From a virus: a stretch of 22,981 nucleotides of DNA. Position 1 is the first letter of the stretch; every line of letters starts with the position of its first letter. Shown here one piece after another: positions 7,012 through 22,981 of the stretch. Position numbers and translations under genes: made by a program. The notes beneath the pieces are model-generated. The model worked only from the letters and a program-made list of their open reading frames with translations, ran no database searches and was not told the DNA's origin. Location: positions 1 through 22,981 of the IMG/VR virus record IMGVR_UViG_3300010885_031891; one strand, 5' to 3'.

Positions 7012-7503
7012 GTGAGTCTAAATCCCGGTGATCTTACATGGCAAAAAGATTCAGCATGCTCAAGGAAAGAAAATGAAAAAATAAGAGACTACTTTTTTTC
7101 AACTGATCCTGCTGAAAAGTATCAAGCAAAAAATCTTTGTTTCTCGTGTCCAGTAAGAAAAGAATGTCTAAAGTGGGCACTTGAGCACAGACAGATCTGG
7201 GGAATCTGGGGAGGAAAAGATGACGGAGAAATTAGAAGAGCTCTTTCAGTCTCGTGGAATGGTCAAGAATCTCGTAGGGAACGCTATCCTCAATGCCCGC
7301 TCTGCTCAGCTAGACCTAATCGTCTCTACGTTATAGTAGTTGATGTTCCTGGCGGTGGACGATGGAATACTGTAAAAGTAGTCGTGTGTAGCGACTGTGA
7401 TTTTTCTTGGAAAAGTAGAACAAGCGCTAACGCAGTAAACGCGTATCACGATGGAAGAGAAGAAAAACTAAAAAAACGAAAAGAAAAGTTCTCTAAAGAC
7501 TAG
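7012..7503 (+). CDS. whiB: WhiB-family iron-sulfur regulator fused to a zinc ribbon
   Basis: A WhiB-like transcription factor. The four iron-sulfur ligands are C16, C43, C46 and C52, in the order C-x26-CxxC-x5-C, with flanking W10 and NLCFSCPVRKECLKWALEH. The conserved turn GIWGG is at residues 64-68, followed by the charged segment KDDGEIRRAL. WhiB proteins bind the primary sigma factor and alter promoter choice in Actinobacteria. This one is longer than usual at 163 residues: a second module has C95, C98, C126 and C129 (CPLC and CSDC) as a zinc ribbon, then a very basic Lys-Arg tail. It starts at GTG straight after the previous stop, with GGTGGAG upstream. It ends convergently with the minus-strand glycosyltransferase gene, the two stops sharing CTAG at 7500-7503. 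It probably redirects host or phage transcription. Confidence 0.9.
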   Translation: MSLNPGDLTWQKDSACSRKENEKIRDYFFSTDPAEKYQAKNLCFSCPVRKECLKWALEHRQIWGIWGGKDDGEIRRALSVSWNGQESRRERYPQCPLCSARPNRLYVIVVDVPGGGRWNTVKVVVCSDCDFSWKSRTSANAVNAYHDGREEKLKKRKEKFSKD

Positions 7504-8615: not shown

Positions 8616-9929
8616 TTACTGAACGTTTATTTTCTCTACTGCCCATACTTCATGTCCCATTATAGTGATAAGTCGTTGACCGTGTCCACTTTTTTCTACT
8701 TCTTTAAGATACTTTGAGTGACATGAGTATTTGCACAAGAACAGCTTGTTGTGACCAAGAGCAAACGGTGTAAGAGTTGGGAAGTTCCTTAAATATTCTA
8801 AAGCTCCATCTACAACACCGAACCAGTGCTGATGAAGAATATCGTCTAATATTACTACTCCAGAATCGCTGATGTACTTTTCTGCTAATCTTAAATCATT
8901 TATCGTATGTACCTTAGTATGGCCGCCATCAATTGAGAAGAATCGTATAGAGCCTGAAGGAATAATTCTATCTAGTCTTTTATGCATTTCACTAGACGTC
9001 GAGTCTCCTTGTATTGGCACAACGCCTTTTCCACCGTGCGCGTCAAAATTACTTACGTTATCTTCAAATATATTTTTTCTTGCCAAGTTTGTTCCACTAT
9101 AGTCAATGTTTAGATGTTGTTCTTCAAACACGTCTATTCCATAAGACTTTTCTGGAGTGTCTATCAGTGCTCTAAGAAGTAAGAAAAACCTACCCATATA
9201 TACACCAATTTCAGCAACGCCACCTGAATTGTTCCACTCTACGTTTTTTAGAACCTTCATAAACTCTGGAAGTGTTCTTACAACCCAACCTGGTACTTGA
9301 AAAAATCCATTTTTTAGATACTTATCTAGTAGATTAGATTCCGCTATTTCTTCTTCTAAAATATTTAGTCTGTTCATATTGTATTTAACTGCATCTTCAT
9401 ACATCTTTGGTAGCGATTCCTTGTTTAGATTTATAAGTATTTCGCTACTCTCGTCTTGTCGACCGATCCACCACGCGGCAATAGCTTTTTGAAATAGTAG
9501 CCCGATAACTCCTGGACACTTTATATCTAATGGTAGAGGTGCTTGCGCGTGAGTTACTCTGCTAAGACCAGTCTCTGCTGCGGTGTACGACTCTTGCCAT
9601 TTAGCATTCTTTTCATAGTACCTTGATAAGAAGAACCAAGCTTCTGCCCTTGTAGGTTCGTATGCTACTGCTTTTAGAATAAGGTTATGCACTGTGCTAT
9701 CTCTATTTTTCTGATTTTCAAAGCACTGGGCAGACTTCAATAAGGAGGCGTACACGTGTTCTCTGTGCGAGTAGTAGCCATACTCAGCAGTTCTTAAGTA
9801 AAAAGAAACAGCTGATGCGGTTTGATCAATTTTTTCGTACTCGATAGCAAGTGACAAGTTAATTCGAGGATTAAAAGGATCATTAGAAAGTTCAACGACT
9901 AGATCGTCTATTTTGTTATACTCCTCCAT
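8616..9929 (-). CDS. TPR-like protein fused to a class I methyltransferase (Methyltransf_24 type)
   Basis: Likely an SAM-dependent methyltransferase acting on a sugar or small-molecule acceptor. The first 190 residues are TPR-like helices, closely related to those of the gene at 17574-18836: both have DPFNP, TASA-SFYLR-AEYGY and an STVHN/TTVHN segment. The C-terminal half has the SAM-binding strand GGVAEIGVYMGRFFLLLRAL, the acid strand KSYGIDVFEE, and then FFSIDGGHTKVHTINDLRLA with SGVVILDDI, the pattern of the Methyltransf_24 family. The ATG at 9927-9929 is preferred over a TTG two codons upstream, because AAGGAGG (9939-9945) is nine bases from the ATG but only three from the TTG. It overlaps the end of the upstream propeller gene by 14 bases. 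Confidence 0.7.
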   Translation of the reverse strand: MEEYNKIDDLVVELSNDPFNPRINLSLAIEYEKIDQTASAVSFYLRTAEYGYYSHREHVYASLLKSAQCFENQKNRDSTVHNLILKAVAYEPTRAEAWFFLSRYYEKNAKWQESYTAAETGLSRVTHAQAPLPLDIKCPGVIGLLFQKAIAAWWIGRQDESSEILINLNKESLPKMYEDAVKYNMNRLNILEEEIAESNLLDKYLKNGFFQVPGWVVRTLPEFMKVLKNVEWNNSGGVAEIGVYMGRFFLLLRALIDTPEKSYGIDVFEEQHLNIDYSGTNLARKNIFEDNVSNFDAHGGKGVVPIQGDSTSSEMHKRLDRIIPSGSIRFFSIDGGHTKVHTINDLRLAEKYISDSGVVILDDILHQHWFGVVDGALEYLRNFPTLTPFALGHNKLFLCKYSCHSKYLKEVEKSGHGQRLITIMGHEVWAVEKINVQ

Positions 9930-10926
9930 AAGCAAGAGCCTCCTTGATCATACTTTCAATAATGTCGTTAGGCACTCTTAAAATAAACGCAGCATTGTCT
10001 TGAAATCCGAAGGTTATTAGTACGTCTTTGTTGTGGACTGCCATACCTGCTGCAAATTCTATTTGAGCGTCTAGAAAAGAGAATGATTGCGGTGAAAGTC
10101 CGATAAGTGTAAACTTATCATCCCATATAAGAAGTCTGTGTCTGTACGTAGCATTTTTCTGTTTCATGTAGTTCTTGTATAAGACAACTTCGTGAGCTAA
10201 TGCTATGTACTTGTTGCCCCAGCGTATTACCTGTGAGCCTCCTCGTTGGTCTGCGGAAGGTACTACTCCTTCTTTTACAGATATCTGCTCGCAGCGTTCT
10301 GGAAGATCTGGGTACGTTTTTATAAGTTCTGTAGGAGATGACCATTTAACAAAGTGGTATGGTTTATCAAGCACTGGCATCCAGTTTTTTTCGCAGTATG
10401 CTTCAAGATCTACTGGTGGAGGTATTCTAATTCTAGATACTTCTTTTGCTGTCCATTTCTTTTTGTCTATTTTTATTTCTGATAATTCCATTCTACCTTG
10501 GCCGGTTGTTGTTGTGTCGCGTCTAACGCCAGTAGCATAGTATTTACCATCCCATTTTACTAGCCTAGCGTCTTCTTCACCAACAAAAGTCCATATTGGT
10601 TTTACATCAAGTTTAGATGTGTCTATTAAACAATAATCTGTGATATTGAGATCAGAGTCTAGTCTGCACAAGTAGTTTGTTGTAACAAGTCTTTGGTCTT
10701 CTTCTGGGTGCAAGTACGCTAATGGTCCCCACACACTGGGAAAACGTTGTTCGTGTTCAGCATGGTATAGCGTGTAGTTTATATGACGTAGAATGCATAA
10801 AATATCTCCGTCGTCATCTATAAAAATGGAAGGGTTCATTAGACCTGTGCCAGCAGTTATAGATGAAGGTATGATTAATGGACGCAGACGTCCACCGTTA
10901 CTTACGACGTTTTGTACAAGGTTCAA
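9916..10926 (-). CDS. GH130-like five-bladed beta-propeller protein, copy A
   Basis: Resembles glycoside hydrolase family 130 and related five-bladed propellers, which cleave or phosphorolyse mannosides. Visible hallmarks are MNPSIFIDDDGDILCILRH near residues 30-48, then EEDARLVKWDGKYYATGVRRD, which contains the ED-x-R element that carries the catalytic Asp in GH130, and a final FGFQDNAAFILRVP. The length of 336 residues suits the family. A closely related copy lies at 16586-17584 on the other strand, also followed by a TPR-methyltransferase, so the pair behaves as a unit. The start is TTG, supported by alignment with the ATG of copy B (both begin MNLVQ); the ribosome-binding site is weak. 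It could trim or bind a glycan, or be a non-catalytic scaffold. Confidence 0.65.
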   Translation of the reverse strand: MNLVQNVVSNGGRLRPLIIPSSITAGTGLMNPSIFIDDDGDILCILRHINYTLYHAEHEQRFPSVWGPLAYLHPEEDQRLVTTNYLCRLDSDLNITDYCLIDTSKLDVKPIWTFVGEEDARLVKWDGKYYATGVRRDTTTTGQGRMELSEIKIDKKKWTAKEVSRIRIPPPVDLEAYCEKNWMPVLDKPYHFVKWSSPTELIKTYPDLPERCEQISVKEGVVPSADQRGGSQVIRWGNKYIALAHEVVLYKNYMKQKNATYRHRLLIWDDKFTLIGLSPQSFSFLDAQIEFAAGMAVHNKDVLITFGFQDNAAFILRVPNDIIESMIKEALAYGGV

Positions 10927-14784: not shown

Positions 14785-16326
14785 TTATCCGAATATCTGA
14801 GAGGCTAGAATTGGTTGGTCATTATCTGCTGCTGAACCACCGGCTGCCCAAGTAGGCACACCACCGGAAACTGTTAGAACCTGTGTGCTTGAACCTATGC
14901 CTAGTCTAGTTATTGCACCAGAACCAGAACCATAGACTAAATCACCTGCTGTTGTGTAGGTACTAATTGCTGGAGATGTCAAAGTTAAACCAGCGATTGT
15001 AGTTACTGTTGCACCAGAGTTGATTACAGTTGAACCAAGAGTAGGTGCTGAGTAACCAGATATGCTTGACCAAGCCAACCCTGTTATCTGAGCGGAATCT
15101 GCTTGAAGGTATTGTCCGTTAGTTCCAACTGCAAGAGAACCAATAGTGCTTGCTCCTGTGCCAGCAACTACTGTTCCTTTAGCAGGATAATTACTTAATA
15201 GTACTGCGTTTGCAACGTTAAAGGTTCCAAAGGCTACTACTGAAACAATATCACTTGCAGCAAGTGCGCTTAGCGCAGTAATGCTTGTACCAGTTGTAGC
15301 AGTGTAATCGCTGTTACGAACTAAAAGGTTTCCGTTTACATACACCTGCTCTTGACCAACGGTATAAGAAAGTGTATTTGCGTTATCATCTGGACCAGAT
15401 ACGCTGGTTTGAGCAGCAGTTGCAGTATAAGTAAATTGACCAACCGTTGCACTTCCGGCTGTGCCTGTCGTTCCCTGTGTACCTGTCGTTCCTTGTGTAC
15501 CTGTCGTACCCTGGCTGCCTGTTGTACCCTGTGTACCAGCACCAGTTGTTCCTTGTGTTCCAGTTGCGCCTTGAGTGCCTGTTGCGCCTTGTGAACCAGT
15601 TGTTCCTTGAGAACCGGTTGTGCCTTGTGAACCAGTAGAACCCATATCACCAGTACGAGCAAAAGTAACTACGATGTCATCAGAGTTTGATAGAGTGCCA
15701 TTACCTGAAACGTATGAACAGTTTACTGTGAACCAGCCCGTGTTATCTGTTAAAGATGCGATCGTGTATAGCTTGAATACACTATCATCAAACTTCTTTG
15801 AGACACGGAAGTGACCCTTGATTGTTGATGTTGAATCATCAATAGTATTTAAGAAAGAGGAAAGGTCAGTAGACGCGTCGTTGCTGCTATCAATGTACAT
15901 TGCGGTTGCAGATGCTGGAGTGGCATTATTAAAGCGAAGGTTACCAGTGCCGGGGTCAGAGGAGGCAGTCGTGGTACTGAATGTGTAGTCAAAAGTTGCG
16001 CCACCAAAGTTGCCGTTTTGGCCAATCGTGCCTTGCGTACCAGTGGTTCCCTGTACACCTGTTGTACCTGTAGTTCCTTGTGAACCTGTAGTTCCTGTAG
16101 TACCTTGGCTACCAGTACCACCTTGCGTACCAGTTACACCTTGTGAACCAGTTGTACCCGTTGTGCCTTGTGCACCAGTAGTTCCTTGCGCGCCAGTTGG
16201 CCCAGTTGGGCCTACAGCAACGGAGCGAGTGCTATTCCAAGTAGTGCCGTCCCATGTCCATGTTAAACCAGCCGCAGTGTAGGTAGCGTTTACTGAAGGA
16301 GAGTTAGGAAAGTCTAGTGCTGACAT
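14785..16326 (-). CDS. Collagen-like tail fibre protein
   Basis: First gene of the fibre operon, 513 residues. Residues 1-35 ([17 protein letters not shown] and TWTWDGTTW) match an N-terminal module common on aquatic phage fibres. Residues about 39-107 and 228-293 are Gly-x-y collagen-like stalks dominated by GTTG, GTQG and GSQG, with almost no proline beyond the first two GPT triplets. Between them lies a beta-domain (108-225) ending [19 protein letters not shown], and after the second stalk a C-terminal fibre domain of 220 residues with [19 protein letters not shown]. The second stalk has one broken triplet (TGAGTQG). The gene seems to be transcribed leaderless: TATAAT lies six bases before the ATG and there is no ribosome-binding site. 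The stalk region and the preceding domain recur in the partial gene at the right end. Confidence 0.85.
15448..15645 (-). repeat. Collagen-like coding repeats, distal stalk
   Basis: Nine-base units coding Gly-x-y triplets, mainly Gly-Thr-Thr, Gly-Ser-Gln and Gly-Thr-Gln. The DNA is near-repetitive and similar to the stalk at 22519-22935, which makes unequal recombination between the two fibre genes possible. Confidence 0.8.
16006..16212 (-). repeat. Collagen-like coding repeats, proximal stalk
   Basis: Gly-x-y coding repeats near the N-terminus of the fibre, beginning with two GPT triplets and continuing with GTT, GSQ, GTQ and GVQ types. The same strand in other frames gives spurious open frames, which are not genes. 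Confidence 0.8.
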
Positions 16327-16332
16327 GTTTTT

Positions 16333-16338
16333 ATTATA
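16333..16338 (-). promoter_or_regulatory. -10 box of a leaderless promoter for the collagen-like fibre gene
   Basis: On the minus strand the sequence is TATAAT, then six bases (AAAAAC), then the ATG start. There is no ribosome-binding site in between. A TANNNT box six to seven bases before the start codon is the hallmark of leaderless transcription, frequent in Actinobacteria. No -35 consensus is seen. The ATACATGTAT palindrome lies just upstream, where a regulator could bind. Confidence 0.6.
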
Positions 16339-16488
16339 CGCCGTGTTCTATACATGTATTTATTACTGCCTTCCTCTTTTTACCTTAGAAAACAGGCTAA
16401 AGCGCACTAAGCATCTTAATTAGCCCTAAAAGAAGCAGTAAGAATAAGACACTTGTTTACTAGATAATAATATCATATATATCTAGGG

Positions 16489-16526
16489 AAGTTACTTATA
16501 ACTTGGTCTTATTATGTTACTTATAA
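16489..16526. repeat. Operator-like inverted and direct repeats
   Basis: GTTACTTATAA occurs twice, 25 bases start to start (16491-16501 and 16516-16526). The first copy is also part of an inverted repeat, AAGTTA-4-TAACTT (16489-16504). Spacing of about two and a half helix turns and position upstream of the plus-strand start suggest a binding site for a regulator, or elements of phage-specific promoters. Confidence 0.45.
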
Positions 16527-16573
16527 AAGGCGTGTGTCTAGTCTAGCTCGAGTCTTTTTTGCTACTCATATGA

Positions 16574-16579
16574 TAAGAT
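16574..16579 (+). promoter_or_regulatory. -10-like box of a leaderless promoter for the second sugar cassette
   Basis: TAAGAT is followed by six bases and the ATG at 16586, and no ribosome-binding site precedes that ATG. An overlapping TATGAT at 16569-16574 is an alternative -10 with a longer gap. The arrangement mirrors the box of the divergent fibre gene. No clear -35 element is seen. Confidence 0.5.
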
Positions 16580-16585
16580 CACTGC

Positions 16586-17584
16586 ATGAACTTGGTGCAA
16601 AGAGCAGTCGAGTATGGCGGAAAATTAGCGCCTATTGTTATCCCAGACGGGCTGACTGCTGGTACCGGGTTGATGAATCCTTCGATTTTTATTGACGATG
16701 ATGGTGATATTCTTGTTAACTTACGGCACGTTAATTACACGCTTTACCATTCAGAAAATACACAAAGATTCCATTCGCCGTGGGGACCATTAGCGTACTT
16801 GCACCCGGAGAAAGATGCGCATCTTATAACAGAAAACTATATTTGTCGACTAAATAAGGATCTTGAAGTTACTGACTATGCTCTTCTTGAGATGCTGGAA
16901 CTACACACTCCGATATGGGAGTTCCATGGATTAGAAGACTGTCGTCTTGTTCAATGGGACGGCGACTACTATGCGATTGGTGTAAGAAGAGACACCACAG
17001 AAGACGGTGAAGGTCGCATGGAGTACAGTCGTATCGAAATTGATAAGACTCAATGGAAGGTTAAAGAAACTCATCGTGTACGCATACCAACACCACTAGA
17101 CACAGTTTCGTATTGCGAGAAAAACTGGGTGCCTATCTTAGATAAGCCTTATCACTTTGTTAAATGGTCTATGCCTACAGAAATTATAAAGGCTGATCCT
17201 AATGAGCCTAAGTGCGAACAGGTGCGTGTTGTAGATACGCCACCTTCTCCAGGAGACCAACGAGGAGGCTCACAGGTAATACGCTGGGGCGAGTACTATA
17301 TTTCTTTTCCTCACGAAGTAAAAATATTTTTTAACTATCTTAGTCAAAGAGACGGGATATACAGACACCGTGTGATTGTCTGGGATAAGGACTTTAACTT
17401 TGTAGGTTTATCTAAAGTATTTTCTTTTCTCGATGCAAAGATTGAATTTTGTGTAGGGGCAGCTATTCTTGGAAAAGATCTTCTTCTTACTTTTGGATTT
17501 CAAGACAACGCGGCGTTCGTTCTTCGTGTTCCTGGCGTGCTTATCGACGAACTAATAGAAGAGGCTTCAAAATATGAAAATTGA
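16586..17584 (+). CDS. GH130-like five-bladed beta-propeller protein, copy B
   Basis: Paralogue of the minus-strand gene at 9916-10926 over its whole 332 residues. Shared elements include MNLVQ at the start, TAGTGLMNPSIFIDDDGDIL, RHVNYTLYH, WGPLAYLHPE, the GH130-type GLEDCRLVQWDGDYYAIGVR (GEEDARL in copy A), YCEKNWVPILDKPYHFVKWS, DQRGGSQVIRWG and FGFQDNAAFVLRVPG. The ED-x-R element carries the catalytic Asp in GH130, so glycan cleavage or phosphorolysis is possible; binding only is also possible. It begins at an ATG without a ribosome-binding site, apparently leaderless. The next gene starts inside its last codons (11-base overlap), as in copy A's cassette. It is therefore a cassette duplicate placed on the opposite strand. 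Confidence 0.65.
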   Translation: MNLVQRAVEYGGKLAPIVIPDGLTAGTGLMNPSIFIDDDGDILVNLRHVNYTLYHSENTQRFHSPWGPLAYLHPEKDAHLITENYICRLNKDLEVTDYALLEMLELHTPIWEFHGLEDCRLVQWDGDYYAIGVRRDTTEDGEGRMEYSRIEIDKTQWKVKETHRVRIPTPLDTVSYCEKNWVPILDKPYHFVKWSMPTEIIKADPNEPKCEQVRVVDTPPSPGDQRGGSQVIRWGEYYISFPHEVKIFFNYLSQRDGIYRHRVIVWDKDFNFVGLSKVFSFLDAKIEFCVGAAILGKDLLLTFGFQDNAAFVLRVPGVLIDELIEEASKYEN

Positions 17585-18836
17585 AGAGCTAATAATTGAC
17601 CTATCTAAGGATCCTTTTAATCCAGATAAAAACTTTCTTATTGCCTTAGAGTATGAAGAGCTGCACCAGACTGCTTCAGCAATTTCATTCTACCTACGCG
17701 CAGCCGAATACGGCTATGAAAGTCACCCGCAGGTAGTGTACACAGCCCTTTTGCGCTCATCACAGTGCTTTAAGCGTCAAGGAGATAGAGCAACTACGGT
17801 TCATAACAGTATCTCACAAGCGCTAACGTATCTACCTGAACGACCAGAAGCGTATTTCTTTATGTCTCAACTATGTGAAACTCAAGGGCAATGGCAAGAT
17901 GCGTACTCGTCAGCTAGTATAGGGCTAACTCTTACTAACGGAAAGACGTTTCCACGCTTGCCTGCACCTACTGGATACCCGGGATCATTTGGACTTAAGT
18001 TCCAAAAAGCTGTAAGTGCCTACTGGATCGGGCGCAGAGACGAGTCGCAGAAACTACTCTTCCAATTAGTGGAGATGGATCTGCCATACGAGTTTTATCA
18101 AGCAGTAAACGCTAGTTTACAGATGTTTGGAATTAAACGATCAGATGATCAATTTATTCCATTAGAGCCAGTAGTTACACAATACCGTAAGTACTTTGGC
18201 GCGTATGCTTCTACTATAATTGATATTGGCACTCGTGATGGTGATGACGCTTCTTATTTTGCTAGAAAACTTAAGGCAAGTACTGTTATTGCTATTGACG
18301 CTAACCCTACCGCTGTTGCGTCAACTCAGGAAAGATACCCTTTAATGCAGGTAGTGCACACTGCAGTTTCTGATGTTGATGGTAAAACTACTTTCCAACA
18401 AGTAGTGAGTGACGATATTTCAGTAGCGGGATGCTCTTCTATTTACGCTAATAAGGTCGCTAATGAACCTCAGTTTGAAGGTATAGTGAATACTATTACC
18501 GTACCTATGACGCGCATGGATACCTTTTTAGAAGAACAAAAGATAGATGATGAAATAGATATTGTAAAGATTGACGTAGAAGGTTACACCTGGGAAGTTC
18601 TACAAGGGTTTGGTGATCGACTCGAGGACGTCAAGGTCTTTCATTTAGAGACAGAAGTGGATCCTACGCACCCCACACATAAGAACAATACTCAAATTTC
18701 AGAATGGATGAAAGAGCAAGGATTTGTTTTAGCTGATGTTTCTTATGAAGGTAGTGGCGGAATCAATGGTGGTATTGAAGACCAGGTGTGGGTCAACCCC
18801 GTCCACGCTATTACTAATAAAGAATGTTTTAATTAA
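17574..18836 (+). CDS. TPR-like protein fused to an FkbM-family methyltransferase
   Basis: Likely an SAM-dependent O-methyltransferase, probably acting on sugars. Residues 1-190 are TPR-like helices clearly related to those of the gene at 8616-9929 (DPFNP, QTASAISFYLRAAEYGY, TTVHNSISQAL, EAYFFMSQL). After about residue 205 comes an FkbM domain: STIIDIGTRDGDDASYFARK for SAM binding, STVIAIDANP with the acidic residue, VVHTAVSDVDGKTTFQQV, and the family's IVKIDVEGYTWEVLQGFG near residues 322-340. FkbM enzymes methylate hydroxyls of sugars in antibiotics and surface glycans. Unlike its paralogue, which carries a Methyltransf_24-type domain, only the N-terminal half is shared. It ends nine bases before the convergent end of the next operon. 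Confidence 0.85.
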   Translation: MKIEELIIDLSKDPFNPDKNFLIALEYEELHQTASAISFYLRAAEYGYESHPQVVYTALLRSSQCFKRQGDRATTVHNSISQALTYLPERPEAYFFMSQLCETQGQWQDAYSSASIGLTLTNGKTFPRLPAPTGYPGSFGLKFQKAVSAYWIGRRDESQKLLFQLVEMDLPYEFYQAVNASLQMFGIKRSDDQFIPLEPVVTQYRKYFGAYASTIIDIGTRDGDDASYFARKLKASTVIAIDANPTAVASTQERYPLMQVVHTAVSDVDGKTTFQQVVSDDISVAGCSSIYANKVANEPQFEGIVNTITVPMTRMDTFLEEQKIDDEIDIVKIDVEGYTWEVLQGFGDRLEDVKVFHLETEVDPTHPTHKNNTQISEWMKEQGFVLADVSYEGSGGINGGIEDQVWVNPVHAITNKECFN

Positions 18837-18842
18837 GCTGCT

Positions 18843-18875
18843 TGTCACAGTTTTGCCCATAAATAGTCAGCAGCT
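18843..18875. repeat. 33-base repeat, copy 1 (identical to 20113-20145)
   Basis: The 33 bases covering the last ten codons and stop of the gene at 18845 are identical to those at the end of the gene at 20115. The shared protein end is AADYLWAKL. Identity at DNA level, including silent positions, beside much more diverged upstream parts suggests recent recombination or conversion. Confidence 0.8.
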
Positions 18876-19135
18876 GACGTGGGATCAAATGGCTTTTTAT
18901 CTCCCGTTAAAAAATCAGGTACTTCTAATTCTTTAAATGTATTTTCAAGATACATTTGCAAATCATTTTTTGTTAGAAATTCCACTATTGGAAGTTCATT
19001 ATAATTTGAGATCGTTATACCCACAAGAATCATCTCTTGCCAATCTGCTTCTTGTGTGGGATAGAAACCACCTTCATCAATGAAGTCTGGAATTGTGCCA
19101 TCTGGATTTAACTTGTATAAAATCATTTTTCTCAC
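18845..19135 (-). CDS. Small tail-associated protein with AADYLWAKL end, copy 1
   Basis: A 96-residue protein related to the one at 20115-20414. Shared features are a VRKMILYKLNPDGTIP opening (MNKVLISYELTTEGTIP in the other), a GGFYP / GGYYP turn, a MILVGIT / MILLGAA strand and the AADYLWAKL end. The start is taken as the GTG at 19133-19135, because AAGGAG lies eight bases upstream and this matches the start of the paralogue. A longer reading to 19228 would overlap the kelch-like gene. Each copy lies downstream of a kelch-like gene, so a chaperone or tip role for the adhesin is plausible but not shown. Confidence 0.6.
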   Translation of the reverse strand: MRKMILYKLNPDGTIPDFIDEGGFYPTQEADWQEMILVGITISNYNELPIVEFLTKNDLQMYLENTFKELEVPDFLTGDKKPFDPTSAADYLWAKL

Positions 19136-19163
19136 GATGCAATCTCCTTCAGTAAAAAATTTG

Positions 19164-20099
19164 TCATAGTCCACCGTGGCCATTTGACACTGCGCCCATT
19201 CCGCGAACCGCCTCCACAAGATCACCAAAACTTGTGCCGTTGCCGGTTGTTGCGGTGGTTACATATTCAACAACATTTGTTGCAATACTTGCAGAAGAAC
19301 CGCCTGCTATCAAAACTCTTGTTGGAGATGATGCTCCGCAAGGTTCATCTTTTATGGCCGTCATGGTTCCAAAACTTGTCGTGTTTCCGGTTGTTGCAAT
19401 AGTAATATAATCAATAATGTTTGTAGTTGGTGGAGCACCGGGATCACCGCCAAAGAATAAACCGCGTGTTGAACTACCGCCGCCGCCGTTTGCGTATTGT
19501 GTCGTTCTAAAGTTTCCGAAACTTGTTGCATTTCCAGTTGTTGCAATGGTTACATAATCAAATGCAGTTGTTGAGTATCCCATAGCAAATACTCCGCGTG
19601 TGGTAGATGATAATCCTGACAAATATCCTCTTGCCGAAGTCGCATTCCCAAAACTTGTGCCGTTGCCGGTTGTTGCAATAGTTATATATTCAATGGTTGC
19701 AATGTTTACATAATTAGGTGGACCACCCACTCCTAAACCGATGCAACCTCTTGTCGAACTTGAAAATGCTCCCGGCGCATATCGTTCGGCTATTAAAGTG
19801 CCAAAACTTGTTGCGTTGCCAGTTGTAGCAATAGTGATGTATTGAATTGTATTTAATACTGTCGCATCGGCTCCGCCGGAAAACACACCGCGAGTTGCCG
19901 AACCACATCCAGCAAAGAGATATGCGGCGGCAGTGAGATTTCCAAATGAAGTGTAATTTGAAAGAGTACCAACATCAAAATACTGCATCGCGGATTGTCT
20001 TACGCTGACCGCCTGTTTATCTCCACCGGCGAATACTGCTCTTGTTGCTGGCGGCGCAACGTAACGTGAGCCAATAATCCCAGGCATAAGATTAGGCAT
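19164..20099 (-). CDS. Kelch-like six-repeat tail protein, copy 1
   Basis: A 311-residue virion protein with six repeats of about 40-50 residues. Each repeat has the core Y-I-T-I-A-T-T-G-N-A-T-S-F-G, followed by a variable stretch, then an S-S-x-T-R-G-V-F-x-G-G element. This is the pattern of kelch-type or related beta-propeller blades common in phages of freshwater and marine bacteria. The repeats differ mostly between the conserved cores, as expected of ligand-binding loops. The N-terminus MPNLMPG is shared with copy 2 at 21210-22145, probably for attachment to a common base. ATG start with GGAG six bases upstream. Receptor binding is likely by analogy. Confidence 0.7.
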   Translation of the reverse strand: MPNLMPGIIGSRYVAPPATRAVFAGGDKQAVSVRQSAMQYFDVGTLSNYTSFGNLTAAAYLFAGCGSATRGVFSGGADATVLNTIQYITIATTGNATSFGTLIAERYAPGAFSSSTRGCIGLGVGGPPNYVNIATIEYITIATTGNGTSFGNATSARGYLSGLSSTTRGVFAMGYSTTAFDYVTIATTGNATSFGNFRTTQYANGGGGSSTRGLFFGGDPGAPPTTNIIDYITIATTGNTTSFGTMTAIKDEPCGASSPTRVLIAGGSSASIATNVVEYVTTATTGNGTSFGDLVEAVRGMGAVSNGHGGL

Positions 20100-20112
20100 T
20101 ATCTACTCCGCC

Positions 20113-20145
20113 TGTCACAGTTTTGCCCATAAATAGTCAGCAGCT
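20113..20145. repeat. 33-base repeat, copy 2 (identical to 18843-18875)
   Basis: Second copy of the identical 33-base segment, at the 3' end of the gene at 20115-20414 and in the same orientation. The two copies are 1270 bases apart and flank the kelch-like gene at 19164-20099, so recombination between them would delete or amplify that gene together with one small gene. Confidence 0.8.
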
Positions 20146-20414
20146 ATTTTAGGATCAAACGCTACTCCCTCATCTGATGGGTGAAGTGCCCTAGTCATCC
20201 ATCTATCTCCAGCGGTATAGCTTGTAATATAAGTTTCTAATTCATCGACATTTTCAAATGTGGTGACAGTCGAATCAAACTGCAAATCTGAATCAGCTGC
20301 ACCCAAAAGAATCATTTTTGTATCAATATAGTTGGGGTAGTACCCACCATCAATGACATATTCGGGGATCGTGCCTTCGGTAGTCAACTCATATGAAATT
20401 AAAACTTTATTCAT
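20115..20414 (-). CDS. Small tail-associated protein with AADYLWAKL end, copy 2
   Basis: A 99-residue relative of the protein at 18845-19135 with the same plan: basic start (MNKVLISYEL), EGTIPEYVIDGGYYP turn, MILLGAADSDL strand, a variable middle, and FDPKIAADYLWAKL at the end. The ATG at 20412-20414 overlaps the end of the upstream coiled-coil gene by eight bases, with GGGAG before it. Function unknown; its linkage to kelch-like genes is the main clue. Confidence 0.6.
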   Translation of the reverse strand: MNKVLISYELTTEGTIPEYVIDGGYYPNYIDTKMILLGAADSDLQFDSTVTTFENVDELETYITSYTAGDRWMTRALHPSDEGVAFDPKIAADYLWAKL

Positions 20415-21210
20415 TTGAATCTCCCATCGTCAAAGATTTTTCATCCAATGTTACAAATCCTCTTTGATGTGCAAAGTTGATGCCATTATCAATAAAGCGA
20501 TCTGCAAGTATATTCATCCAACGAATAACCATATCAAGTGTTGGTGTTTCATTAAGTGAAAGCATGTTGTTTTCCAGCTCTAATAAGGCAAAGATCTCTT
20601 GTTGGACAACTGCCCCATTGATGCCTAATTCAAAAAGATATATGTGATTGCCTTCATCAATAATTCCACCGTGAGCGCGAGCCGCGCACAAGGCTTGCTT
20701 TAGTGCAGTCATAATATGATGACGGGATTCATTTGATTCATATTCCATTTCAGTCAATTCAGTTTTATTCATCTTTTCCATGATTGCTTCATATTGAGTC
20801 ACAAAAAAACTCATCTTTCGAATGGCGGCCTTGATAGTTAATTCTGAGTTTTTCTTTTTGACTTCCATTTCCGCTAATTCCACTTCAATTAATTCTTTGT
20901 CAAATCCTTCTGCCGTTTCTAACTGTTGAACTTTTCTACGATATTCAATATCTTTTTTCTTAGTATTAAAATGTGCATCTTCTAATGCCCATCGGGTCTG
21001 CTCAATAACCGCCAAGATGTGTTTGATAGATCCAAAATCAGTTAATTCCGTTACATCAAGAGTCACATTCTTAAATTGTGAAGCGGCTTTGCCAAAGATT
21101 TGACTGTTTTCATATATTCCCAATGAATGCTTTTTGATGTGATCCAGCATTGATTGATATTGTGGATCAAGTGCAACATAAGATTTAAGATCTAAAGTTT
21201 CTAATTCCAT
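20407..21210 (-). CDS. Coiled-coil hypothetical protein in the adhesin operon
   Basis: A 267-residue, largely helical protein. The segment at about residues 65-150 is strongly charged with heptad-like spacing (IEYRRKVQQLETAEGFDKEL, VELAEMEVKKKNSELTIKAA), indicating a coiled coil. The C-terminal third is also helical (TLDMVIRWMNILADRFIDNG) with few repeats. It has no signal peptide or membrane segment. I recognise no family. It is coupled to the upstream kelch-like gene by a TAATG overlap and to the downstream small gene, so it is probably made with the adhesin, as a trimerisation or assembly factor or as a structural part. Confidence 0.55.
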   Translation of the reverse strand: MELETLDLKSYVALDPQYQSMLDHIKKHSLGIYENSQIFGKAASQFKNVTLDVTELTDFGSIKHILAVIEQTRWALEDAHFNTKKKDIEYRRKVQQLETAEGFDKELIEVELAEMEVKKKNSELTIKAAIRKMSFFVTQYEAIMEKMNKTELTEMEYESNESRHHIMTALKQALCAARAHGGIIDEGNHIYLFELGINGAVVQQEIFALLELENNMLSLNETPTLDMVIRWMNILADRFIDNGINFAHQRGFVTLDEKSLTMGDSNE

Positions 21211-22145
21211 TACATACCCCCATTGTCATTGCTCATACAACCAATATATCCTGCATCATATTGAAGTGTACCAAAAGATGTACCATTTCCTGTTGTTGCG
21301 ATTGTTACATATTCAATTCTATTTTTTTCATTTGAATATCCATCTGAGCCGCCGCCAATAACCGCCCTAGTGGTTGATGACGCACATCCCGGCGAATCTG
21401 ATGCGGTGACTAATGTGCCAAAAGATGTGCCGTTTCCGGTGGTTGCGATGGTGATATATTCGATTGAGTTCGTAGTTCCACTTGCCTCTCCGCCAAACCA
21501 AATTCCGCGTGTTGCCGATGACGCGCCGCCGTTGTTTCCGTTATATCTATTGAGATAAGGTGTTCCAAAAGATGTTGCGTTTCCGGTGGTTGCAATAGTC
21601 ACATAATCAACCGTTGAAGTTTGAGGATAACCACCTAGCCAAACTCCGCGAGTTGGAGATGCCAATCCCGATACTACATAAGTTGAGACGGTTCTTGTGC
21701 CAAAAGATGTTGCGTTTCCGGTCGTTGCAATAGTTATATAATCGATTGTATTTGAAAGAGAGCCGGTATATCCGCCGCCGAAAACGGCTCTTGTACTATT
21801 TGAAAGTGCGCCCAATCCATATCTCGTTGATGTTAAATTGCCGAAAGATGATGAGTTGCCGGTGGTTGCCCAAGTAATATATTCGATTGCCGCCGTTATT
21901 GTAAAACTACCTAAAACACCCATCGCCGCAACTCCTCGAGTGGATGATCCTGCACCGCTTGCTTGATATCCGACAGCCGATGCGCTACCCCAGGTTGCCG
22001 CGTTGCCGGTTGTTGCGATGTTTACATATTGCAAAAGATTTCGTAGCGTTTCATCTTGATTTCTACCATTGATCCAGATTGCTTGCGCAAGAGTTAGATG
22101 ACCTGTTATTGACGAGGCAATTGAGCCAGGCATCAGATTAGGCAA
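21210..22145 (-). CDS. Kelch-like six-repeat tail protein, copy 2
   Basis: A 311-residue paralogue of the gene at 19164-20099, with the same length and the same N-terminal MPNLMPG. Six repeats carry the core Y-[IV]-[TN]-[IW]-A-T-T-G-N-x-x-S/T-F/W-G, with S-S-x-T-R-[GA]-V-x-x-G-G between them. Cores are conserved while inter-core loops differ from copy 1, consistent with different ligands. The start is TTG, supported by AAGGAG six bases upstream and by alignment with copy 1. Followed by a coiled-coil gene in a TAATG overlap. Likely a receptor-binding or decoration propeller. Confidence 0.7.
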   Translation of the reverse strand: MPNLMPGSIASSITGHLTLAQAIWINGRNQDETLRNLLQYVNIATTGNAATWGSASAVGYQASGAGSSTRGVAAMGVLGSFTITAAIEYITWATTGNSSSFGNLTSTRYGLGALSNSTRAVFGGGYTGSLSNTIDYITIATTGNATSFGTRTVSTYVVSGLASPTRGVWLGGYPQTSTVDYVTIATTGNATSFGTPYLNRYNGNNGGASSATRGIWFGGEASGTTNSIEYITIATTGNGTSFGTLVTASDSPGCASSTTRAVIGGGSDGYSNEKNRIEYVTIATTGNGTSFGTLQYDAGYIGCMSNDNGGM

Positions 22146-22185
22146 GACACTCTCCTTTAACTACTGATCTTGCTTTTTAAGTAGC

Positions 22186-22981
22186 TTAGGAGATGTCGCC
22201 CACGACGTACCAGCGGTTGTTAGCTACCTTTAGGAGAGTTGCAGAGCTGTATTGAGCACGAAGAATCGGAGCGGTTGCTTGCGCACCAGTCGATTGAATC
22301 GTAGTCTGCGCGGTGTTAGCTGCTTGAATAATAACGTTCTGCGATCCGCGACGAGCTACTGAAATCTGCGTACCTTGCGCATAGGCAACGTTCGCATCGG
22401 TAGGTACCATAAAGTACGTAACACTTATAGTGTCACCCATTTCAACAACACTGTTAGCGTCAGCCAAGTACGGCGTATAGGTCGTTGTTGTACCGCCCTG
22501 GATACCAAACGTGGTGCTTCCAGAAGTACCCTGTGTTCCAGTAGTACCCTGTGAACCATTGGTTCCATTGGCGCCTTGCGTACCTGTGCCAGTTGTACCT
22601 TGTGATCCGGTTGTACCAGTTGTGCCTTGGCTACCGGTTGTACCAGTTGTACCTTGTGATCCGGTTGTACCAGTTGTGCCTTGCGTACCTGTTGTTCCTT
22701 GCGTACCTGTCGCACCTTGAGAACCAGTTGTACCCTGTGAACCAGTCGTACCTGTTGTTCCCTGTGTACCAGTCGCACCTTGAGAACCAGTTGCGCCTTG
22801 CGTACCTGTACCACCCTGCGAACCGGTTGTACCTTGTGAACCGGTTGTACCAACGGTACCTTGAGTTCCAGTTGCGCCTTGCGTACCTGTACCACCCTGC
22901 GAACCGGTTGTACCTTGAGAACCGGTATTACCAATATCACCAGTTCTTGCAAAGGTGATGATGATATCTTCGCTAGCACTA
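22186..22981 (-). CDS. Collagen-like tail fibre protein, C-terminal part (5' end outside window)
   Basis: An open frame enters from the right edge and ends with TAG or a related stop at 22186, giving the last 264 residues of a larger protein. It begins [20 protein letters not shown], the same junction as in the fibre at 14785-16326, followed by about 46 Gly-x-y triplets ([15 protein letters not shown]) with one interruption (GTGTQG). After the stalk comes a distinct C-terminal domain of about 115 residues ending [28 protein letters not shown]-like sequence, seen on other aquatic phage fibres. So the two fibres share stalk and preceding domain but have different ends. A shorter reading from an internal TTG at 22467 would be only this end domain and is not a separate gene. 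Confidence 0.8.
22519..22935 (-). repeat. Collagen-like coding repeats of the right-end fibre
   Basis: Nine-base Gly-x-y coding units over more than 400 bases, with larger repeated blocks, for example two near-identical stretches coding [16 protein letters not shown]. Proline is absent and Thr is very frequent. Regular repeats here are protein-coding and not a CRISPR array. Confidence 0.8.

Follow-up and report, generated by a model that had tools for sequence, protein, structure and literature searches.

Leaderless genes of Actinobacteria are recognizable by a TANNNT motif some 12 bp ahead of the start codon (Zheng et al., 2011, PMC3160421). The promoters of Mycobacterium tuberculosis are described as mostly TANNNT without a -35 motif, with a pyrimidine as the usual neighbor of the start and with the greatest activity in those that have a TGN extension (Cortes et al., 2013, PMC3898074). 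Similar promoters have been proposed for phages: a leaderless transcript has been predicted for gene 90 of Adephagia (PMC11373665), and in the Cluster O mycobacteriophages (the Corndog group) the divergent, SigA-like promoters PL1 and PR2 have been predicted to be leaderless, with a further promoter, PL2, in the structural operon (PMC4351075).

The locus considered here lies in a virus record of 22,981 bases (hereafter the window, meaning the whole stretch of DNA that was analyzed), in which a 259-bp gap of 33% GC separates a minus-strand fibre gene from a plus-strand sugar gene (Table 1). It resembles the PL1/PR2 pair in its divergent arrangement, its AT-rich intergenic region and a predicted +1 that coincides with the opening base of each start codon, and a second likeness is offered by PL2, which serves a leftward gene within the structural operon (PMC4351075). 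Divergent leaderless phage promoters, and one serving a reversed gene in a structural operon, are of a kind already known from that account (PMC4351075). The Cluster O prediction concerns five closely related phages (PMC4351075), whereas in the present comparison 50 of 69 diverged upstream regions of a single gene family, among the matches listed, contain the box. The host and genes also differ, and the plus promoter of the window is of the extended -10 type, with no conserved -35. What is new is the gene-specific, orientation-dependent conservation of the box across many uncultured phages, for which searches of the open-licence literature listed no precedent.

Gene Layout and Start Sites

The two plus-strand genes form an opposite-strand island, with the fibre genes to the left and the listed genes to the right (18845 onwards) all on the minus strand. 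No SD-like sequence precedes ATG 16586 or ATG 16326, and TAnnnT stands at -12 to -7 at just two of the 31 listed starts in the window, those of the sugar gene and the fibre gene. The preliminary description had held that both starts lack a ribosome-binding site and that a -10-like box lies six bases before each ATG, and this is borne out, the arrangement being TATAAT-N6-ATG on the minus side and TAAGAT-N6-ATG on the plus side, with TGn present in the plus promoter and absent from the minus one. The features of a leaderless sigma-A promoter, namely a TANNNT whose first T lies 12-13 bp ahead of the start codon and no SD, are found at both genes, with conservation for the plus gene only. The proposal of divergent leaderless promoters stands strongly for the plus side, where the box is conserved in relatives, and more weakly for the minus side, where a sister contig and one independent analogue speak for it.

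Two diverged sugar-gene paralogues of the window, one at 9916-10926 (minus) and the other at 16586-17584 (plus), flank the fibre genes and face opposite ways. The minus paralogue begins with TTG, follows a co-directional gene and has no box.

Table 1. Features in and around the divergent gap (positions in the window).
Feature	Position	Strand	Remarks
Collagen-like tail fibre gene, predicted leaderless	14785..16326	-	PF01391; PHROG tail fibre families; start backed by N-terminal homologues
-10 box TATAAT of the putative fibre-gene promoter	16333..16338	-	followed by aaaaac, then ATG 16326
Gap middle, largely missing from sister L002	16384..16463	.	sister comparison
Direct repeat copy 1, GTTACTTATAA	16491..16501	+	pair restricted to window and sister
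Direct repeat copy 2, GTTACTTATAA	16516..16526	+	25 nt from copy 1; pair restricted to window and sister
Extended -10 motif TATGA (complete TRTGn)	16569..16573	+	abuts TAAGAT; read from sequence
-10 box TAAGAT of the predicted sugar-gene promoter	16574..16579	+	followed by cactgc, then ATG 16586
Sugar gene, 332 aa (MNLVQ...), mRNA predicted leaderless from the A of ATG	16586..17584	+	fold like beta-mannosyl phosphorylases/mannosyltransferases
Second cassette gene, TPR-like N-terminal part (likeness to relatives) and FkbM methyltransferase	17574..18836	+	PF05050, TIGR01444

Conservation of the Predicted Plus Promoter in Relatives

A first set of sugar-gene relatives comprised the best 80 of 279 loci, from which L006 and L048 were left out because their upstream sequence was too short; the remaining 79 upstream regions, 78 and that of the window, formed 26 clusters, 25 of them independent, as the window and its sister contig L002 make up two. 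Within this best 80 of 279 loci, TAnnnT was found at spacer 6 or 7 in 22 of the 26 clusters (16 and 6, respectively; background 0.74 per position), the clusters without it being those of L005, L010, L012 and L070. An extended -10, leaderless and mainly divergent promoter was the prediction drawn from this set and was then tested on relatives from three more distant queries. Each search supplied the best 80 of more loci found, and all cluster counts below hold among the matches listed. The enlarged set contained 318 gene hits (316 loci and the window), of which 13 were dropped for having no nearby start codon, less than 60 nt upstream or an alignment start beyond residue 12; the 305 usable hits gave 124 upstream clusters, split by best query into 69 window-like and 55 cyanophage-like ones.

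Among the matches listed, 50 of the 69 window-like clusters have TAnnnT at spacer 6 (37) or 7 (13). The background is 2.95% for any one position, which for spacer 6 gives a binomial P of 5e-38. The comparison of the boxes in relatives, which the preliminary description had itself proposed, thus upholds the plus box. The box was also present in 29 of the 43 held-out window-like clusters listed (divergent 18/20, co-directional 11/23), and none of the 95 held-out members is at least 90% identical to a first-set locus over at least 300 nt. Orientation matters: among the matches listed, 34 of 37 divergent clusters carry the box vs. 16 of 32 co-directional ones (Fisher P = 1.2e-4). The orientation test took only ORFs of at least 70 aa, by which L070 and L252 were misplaced; in these, two of the three divergent clusters without a box, a short co-directional ORF overlaps the sugar-gene start. 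In the cyanophage-like branch the box occurs in 5 of the 55 clusters listed, which is about chance. Two loci with a sugar-gene copy are bacterial genome contigs, a Chitinophagaceae MAG without the box and a cyanobacterial MAG with it, and both may be binned phage contigs. One cyanophage relative, near 3992 in L165 (Synechococcus phage DSL-LC02), is flanked by minus-strand fibre genes like those of the window and has TTGACA and TAGAAT at least ~20 nt upstream of its start, judged by eye to be a leadered promoter.

Several further biases accompany the boxes, none of which was a criterion in their detection. TGn stands before 24 of the 50 boxes vs. 6 of 72 control TAnnnT in the same upstream regions (P = 9e-7), T at -5 and G at -2 of the box each occur in 36/50, and a pyrimidine directly precedes the start codon in 40 of the 50 boxed clusters (P = 1e-5). 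These biases fit a promoter from which transcription begins at the opening base of the start codon. No -35 or other upstream element was conserved across the upstream regions of the sugar-gene relatives, so that TATGA-TAAGAT in the window, the TGn frequency among relatives and the lack of a conserved -35 all correspond to an extended -10 promoter. The resemblance to actinobacterial leaderless genes extends to the first T of TANNNT about 12 bp before the start, the lack of an SD and of a -35, TGN in some cases and the preceding pyrimidine (PMC3160421; PMC3898074). The proportion of TGn differs, however, from the 7% given for M. tuberculosis TANNNT promoters, in a genome of other base composition (PMC3898074).

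The signal is confined to the sugar gene. Among the matches listed, an SD precedes it in 2 of the 69 window-like clusters and in none of the 37 divergent ones; a looser SD pattern flags 3 of the 26 first-set clusters, in two of which the match falls within the box. Other ATGs in the first-set loci, unlike the sugar gene, show an evident SD peak. Before other genes of the same loci there is no TAnnnT excess at spacer 6 or 7 (38 and 30 vs. 40.5 +- 9.2), from which we conclude that the signal is specific to the sugar gene. Leaderless starts as a general style of these phages were accordingly considered and rejected. When all ATG-started ORFs of the first-set loci are taken together, the spacer-6 count is 52 (mean 29, sd 9.4), hardly above the 50 at spacer 14 and the 48 at spacer 19; it is before the sugar gene alone that the signal is prominent.

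The Fibre Gene and Other Divergent Partners

The minus box TATAAT is retained in the sister (L002/L082), and an independent analogue is found in L202, where a fibre-like gene (MAINFPTP..., a start like that of the fibre gene in the window) is preceded by TATACT-N6-ATG. The sugar gene of L202 also has TATACT-N6-ATG, the two starts lie 105 bp apart and the direct repeat of the window is absent. The sister and this one analogue make up the case for the minus promoter, and broad conservation of the box could not be demonstrated among the fibre N-terminal relatives: of 35 (sister included), 24 gave a start, 8 of these with TAnnnT (including the sister and one similar group of 4) and 6 with an SD by the looser pattern.

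The 37 genes that lie divergent from the sugar gene among the matches listed begin with an SD in 18 cases, in a leaderless-like manner in 9 and with neither in 10, a count in which several candidate starts per ORF were considered, SD was given priority and one of the 9 leaderless-like starts is a doubtful TTG. Partner starts thus have an SD more often than they are leaderless, while the sugar side has none in 37, and the two sides are therefore without a common design; only a minority thus match the window in having both starts leaderless. Both-sided leaderless-like starts occur in the L077 group, in which the divergent gene encodes a cupin of the mannose-6-phosphate isomerase type (PF01050; L077 5596-5931 minus), a second mannose-related gene adjoining the cassette. 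In L225 the divergent neighbor of the sugar gene begins MKIEDLVIELSNDPF and resembles the second cassette gene, with a TAnnnT box on both; here two cassettes may stand back to back.

The Cassette and Its Surroundings

The sugar protein reached no family in Pfam, PHROG or NCBIfam, and its likely relationships come from structure prediction. An AlphaFold2 model built from 29 sequences (mean pLDDT 83.8) gave as its best Foldseek matches beta-mannosyl phosphorylases and GDP-mannose-dependent mannosyltransferases (PDB 6q4z, 7fip, 9fj8; E 1e-9 to 1e-7), which we take to be members of families GH130 and GT108. In the top rows TM is mostly 0.5-0.6 over most of the length, so the predicted fold is alike, at a sequence identity of about 10-15%; paraoxonase propellers also match the model at a lower TM (about 0.4). 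The phage collection that was searched yielded just two relatives of the gene, both in cyanophages, annotated as MGP protein or beta-mannosyltransferase. The TPR-like and FkbM parts of the second gene are fused in the window and in sister L002, the only relative that a search with the second gene brought up, and are separate genes in many relatives of the cassette. A mannosyltransferase-like gene together with TPR and FkbM methyltransferase parts looks, on the predicted fold, like a putative glycan-modifying cassette.

Phage morons are accessory genes that sit on the opposite strand within a late operon and carry a promoter of their own. The cassette, as read from its sequence, would be of this kind, comprising opposite-strand accessory genes with a predicted promoter of their own. 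A possible difference is that the one terminator-like site found after the cassette is on the opposite strand, with none found on its own. A search of the open-licence literature for a leaderless moron or glycan-cassette precedent returned nothing on point.

In sister L002 the match to 22179-22712 starts ~370 bp past the cassette end and most of the ~3.3 kb block 18845-22145 is missing, which points to module exchange beside the cassette. Within this part of the window, 19164-20099 and 21210-22145 encode similar 311-aa proteins with an MPNLMPG start and repeated 'ITIATTGN.TSFG' motifs, with other genes between them and no Pfam family.

Repeats and Alternative Explanations

A tempting alternative is that the gap is a shared regulatory switch, its repeats being bound by a regulator, WhiB or some other, that alternates between the fibre genes and the sugar cassette. 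The 25-base-phased direct repeat that had been reported is real (Table 1), moderately unexpected in such a gap (dinucleotide shuffles: P = 0.018 with 1000, 0.01 with 200) and exactly retained in sister L002. Its copies end ~60 and 85 bp ahead of the start predicted for the sugar gene, where an activator could plausibly bind. The divergent gap of L027 also has a repeat (9 nt, spacing 22, P = 0.01), and a WhiB-like protein is encoded by the window (7012-7503; PF02467) and by the sister; freshwater studies take whiB to mark actinophages (PMC6802176; PMC10202952). However, retention of the repeat in the sister is uninformative, given an identity to the window of 97% over 16464 to 18836. The two copies of GTTACTTATAA are the only ones on either strand of the window; across 478 loci, both strands, the pair is restricted to loci of the window and sister contig (L001, L002, L082, L166, L268), with single copies in L381, L389 and L398, loci from the cyanophage query. 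An 11-nt direct repeat is absent from the 21 other divergent gaps that are at least 60 bp long.

The inverted repeats add little to such a switch. At least five had been claimed, and loose settings do give 8 pairs, but they are not clearly above chance: exact complementary word pairs are marginal at k = 6 (40 observed vs. 27.4 expected, P = 0.048) and at chance for k = 7 (12 vs. 8.0, P = 0.16), k = 8 (6 vs. 4.3, P = 0.29), k = 9 (1 vs. 1.25) and k = 10 (1 vs. 0.96). Nor is the gap conserved as a unit, as the sister keeps 16327-16383 and 16464-16585, and with them both promoters, and lacks the ~80 bp between, which are probably dispensable for either promoter. The box also occurs independently of WhiB, in 6 of the 7 records that encode it and 17 of the 20 that do not, although records are fragments and not all independent, so that absence of WhiB is weak evidence. 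As WhiB turned up in just 7 of the 27 records, the host may not be an actinobacterium for all relatives. With no upstream element conserved and two sides that differ in start design, the proposed shared control point and its reading by WhiB are not upheld, and we regard the switch as very unlikely, while a regulator may bind the direct repeat in the window and sister lineage alone.

A second alternative is ordinary leadered transcription from promoters further upstream, the boxes being chance matches in AT-rich DNA. Co-directional copies may indeed be without the box, as half of them are, and there is a sigma-70-like match within the gap on the minus strand, one not above shuffles. Against this, the spacing-specific conservation in nearly all divergent clusters listed, with the TGn and -1 base signals, is hard to reconcile with chance at the plus gene. 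Leadered transcription is therefore a highly unlikely account of the locus, and for the minus gene alone it stays a candidate.

The weakest alternative, a phase-variable inversion in which the segment or its neighbors flip and so switch expression, could draw on the opposite orientation of the two sugar-gene paralogues either side of the fibre genes, but the gap has no long inverted arms, no Pfam recombinase family is found among the 31 listed proteins of the fragment (one may lie elsewhere) and the orientation in the sister is identical, so that inversion is barely credible and the phase-like switch suggested in the preliminary description is unsupported, as is the WhiB idea.

Meaning of the Predicted Divergent Promoters

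The gap is very probably made up of two separate back-to-back promoters of sigma-A type that give leaderless mRNAs, the plus one serving the cassette and the minus one restarting the fibre operon. The boxes, their spacing, conservation and orientation dependence and the lack of SD sequences are read from sequence, and it is from these that we infer the transcription starts, leaderless translation, timing, use of the host polymerase and the restart role. Lying on the strand opposite the structural genes, the cassette is unreadable by their operon and brings its own promoter. Each promoter would be placed so that transcription starts at the A of the start codon. The plus promoter, an extended -10 (TRTGn-TAnnnT, no conserved -35), would belong to the sugar cassette, and the host polymerase would make from it a cassette mRNA starting with the first codon, as in many actinobacterial genes. 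The minus-strand promoter would restart the fibre operon beyond the cassette. Overall, the best reading is a self-promoted, opposite-strand glycan cassette inside a structural operon.

More tentatively, and with rather less than an even chance in our estimation, the cassette may be a self-contained unit that moves between unlike phages together with its extended -10 leaderless promoter. Such a unit could be read by unmodified host polymerase, perhaps early and independent of the late programme, at any insertion site and in any orientation, and the promoter would be lost on landing downstream of a co-directional gene or in hosts, such as cyanobacteria, with no preference for leaderless translation.

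An attractive 'switch' reading of the repeats is thereby removed as unsupported. In its place there is sequence evidence from many uncultured phages that a leaderless start can be a design kept up for one particular gene rather than an accident. The gene itself supplies a natural control, as half of its co-directional cluster contexts and almost the whole cyanophage-like branch are without the box. The finding also provides a simple rule for start annotation and perhaps a hint of host type.
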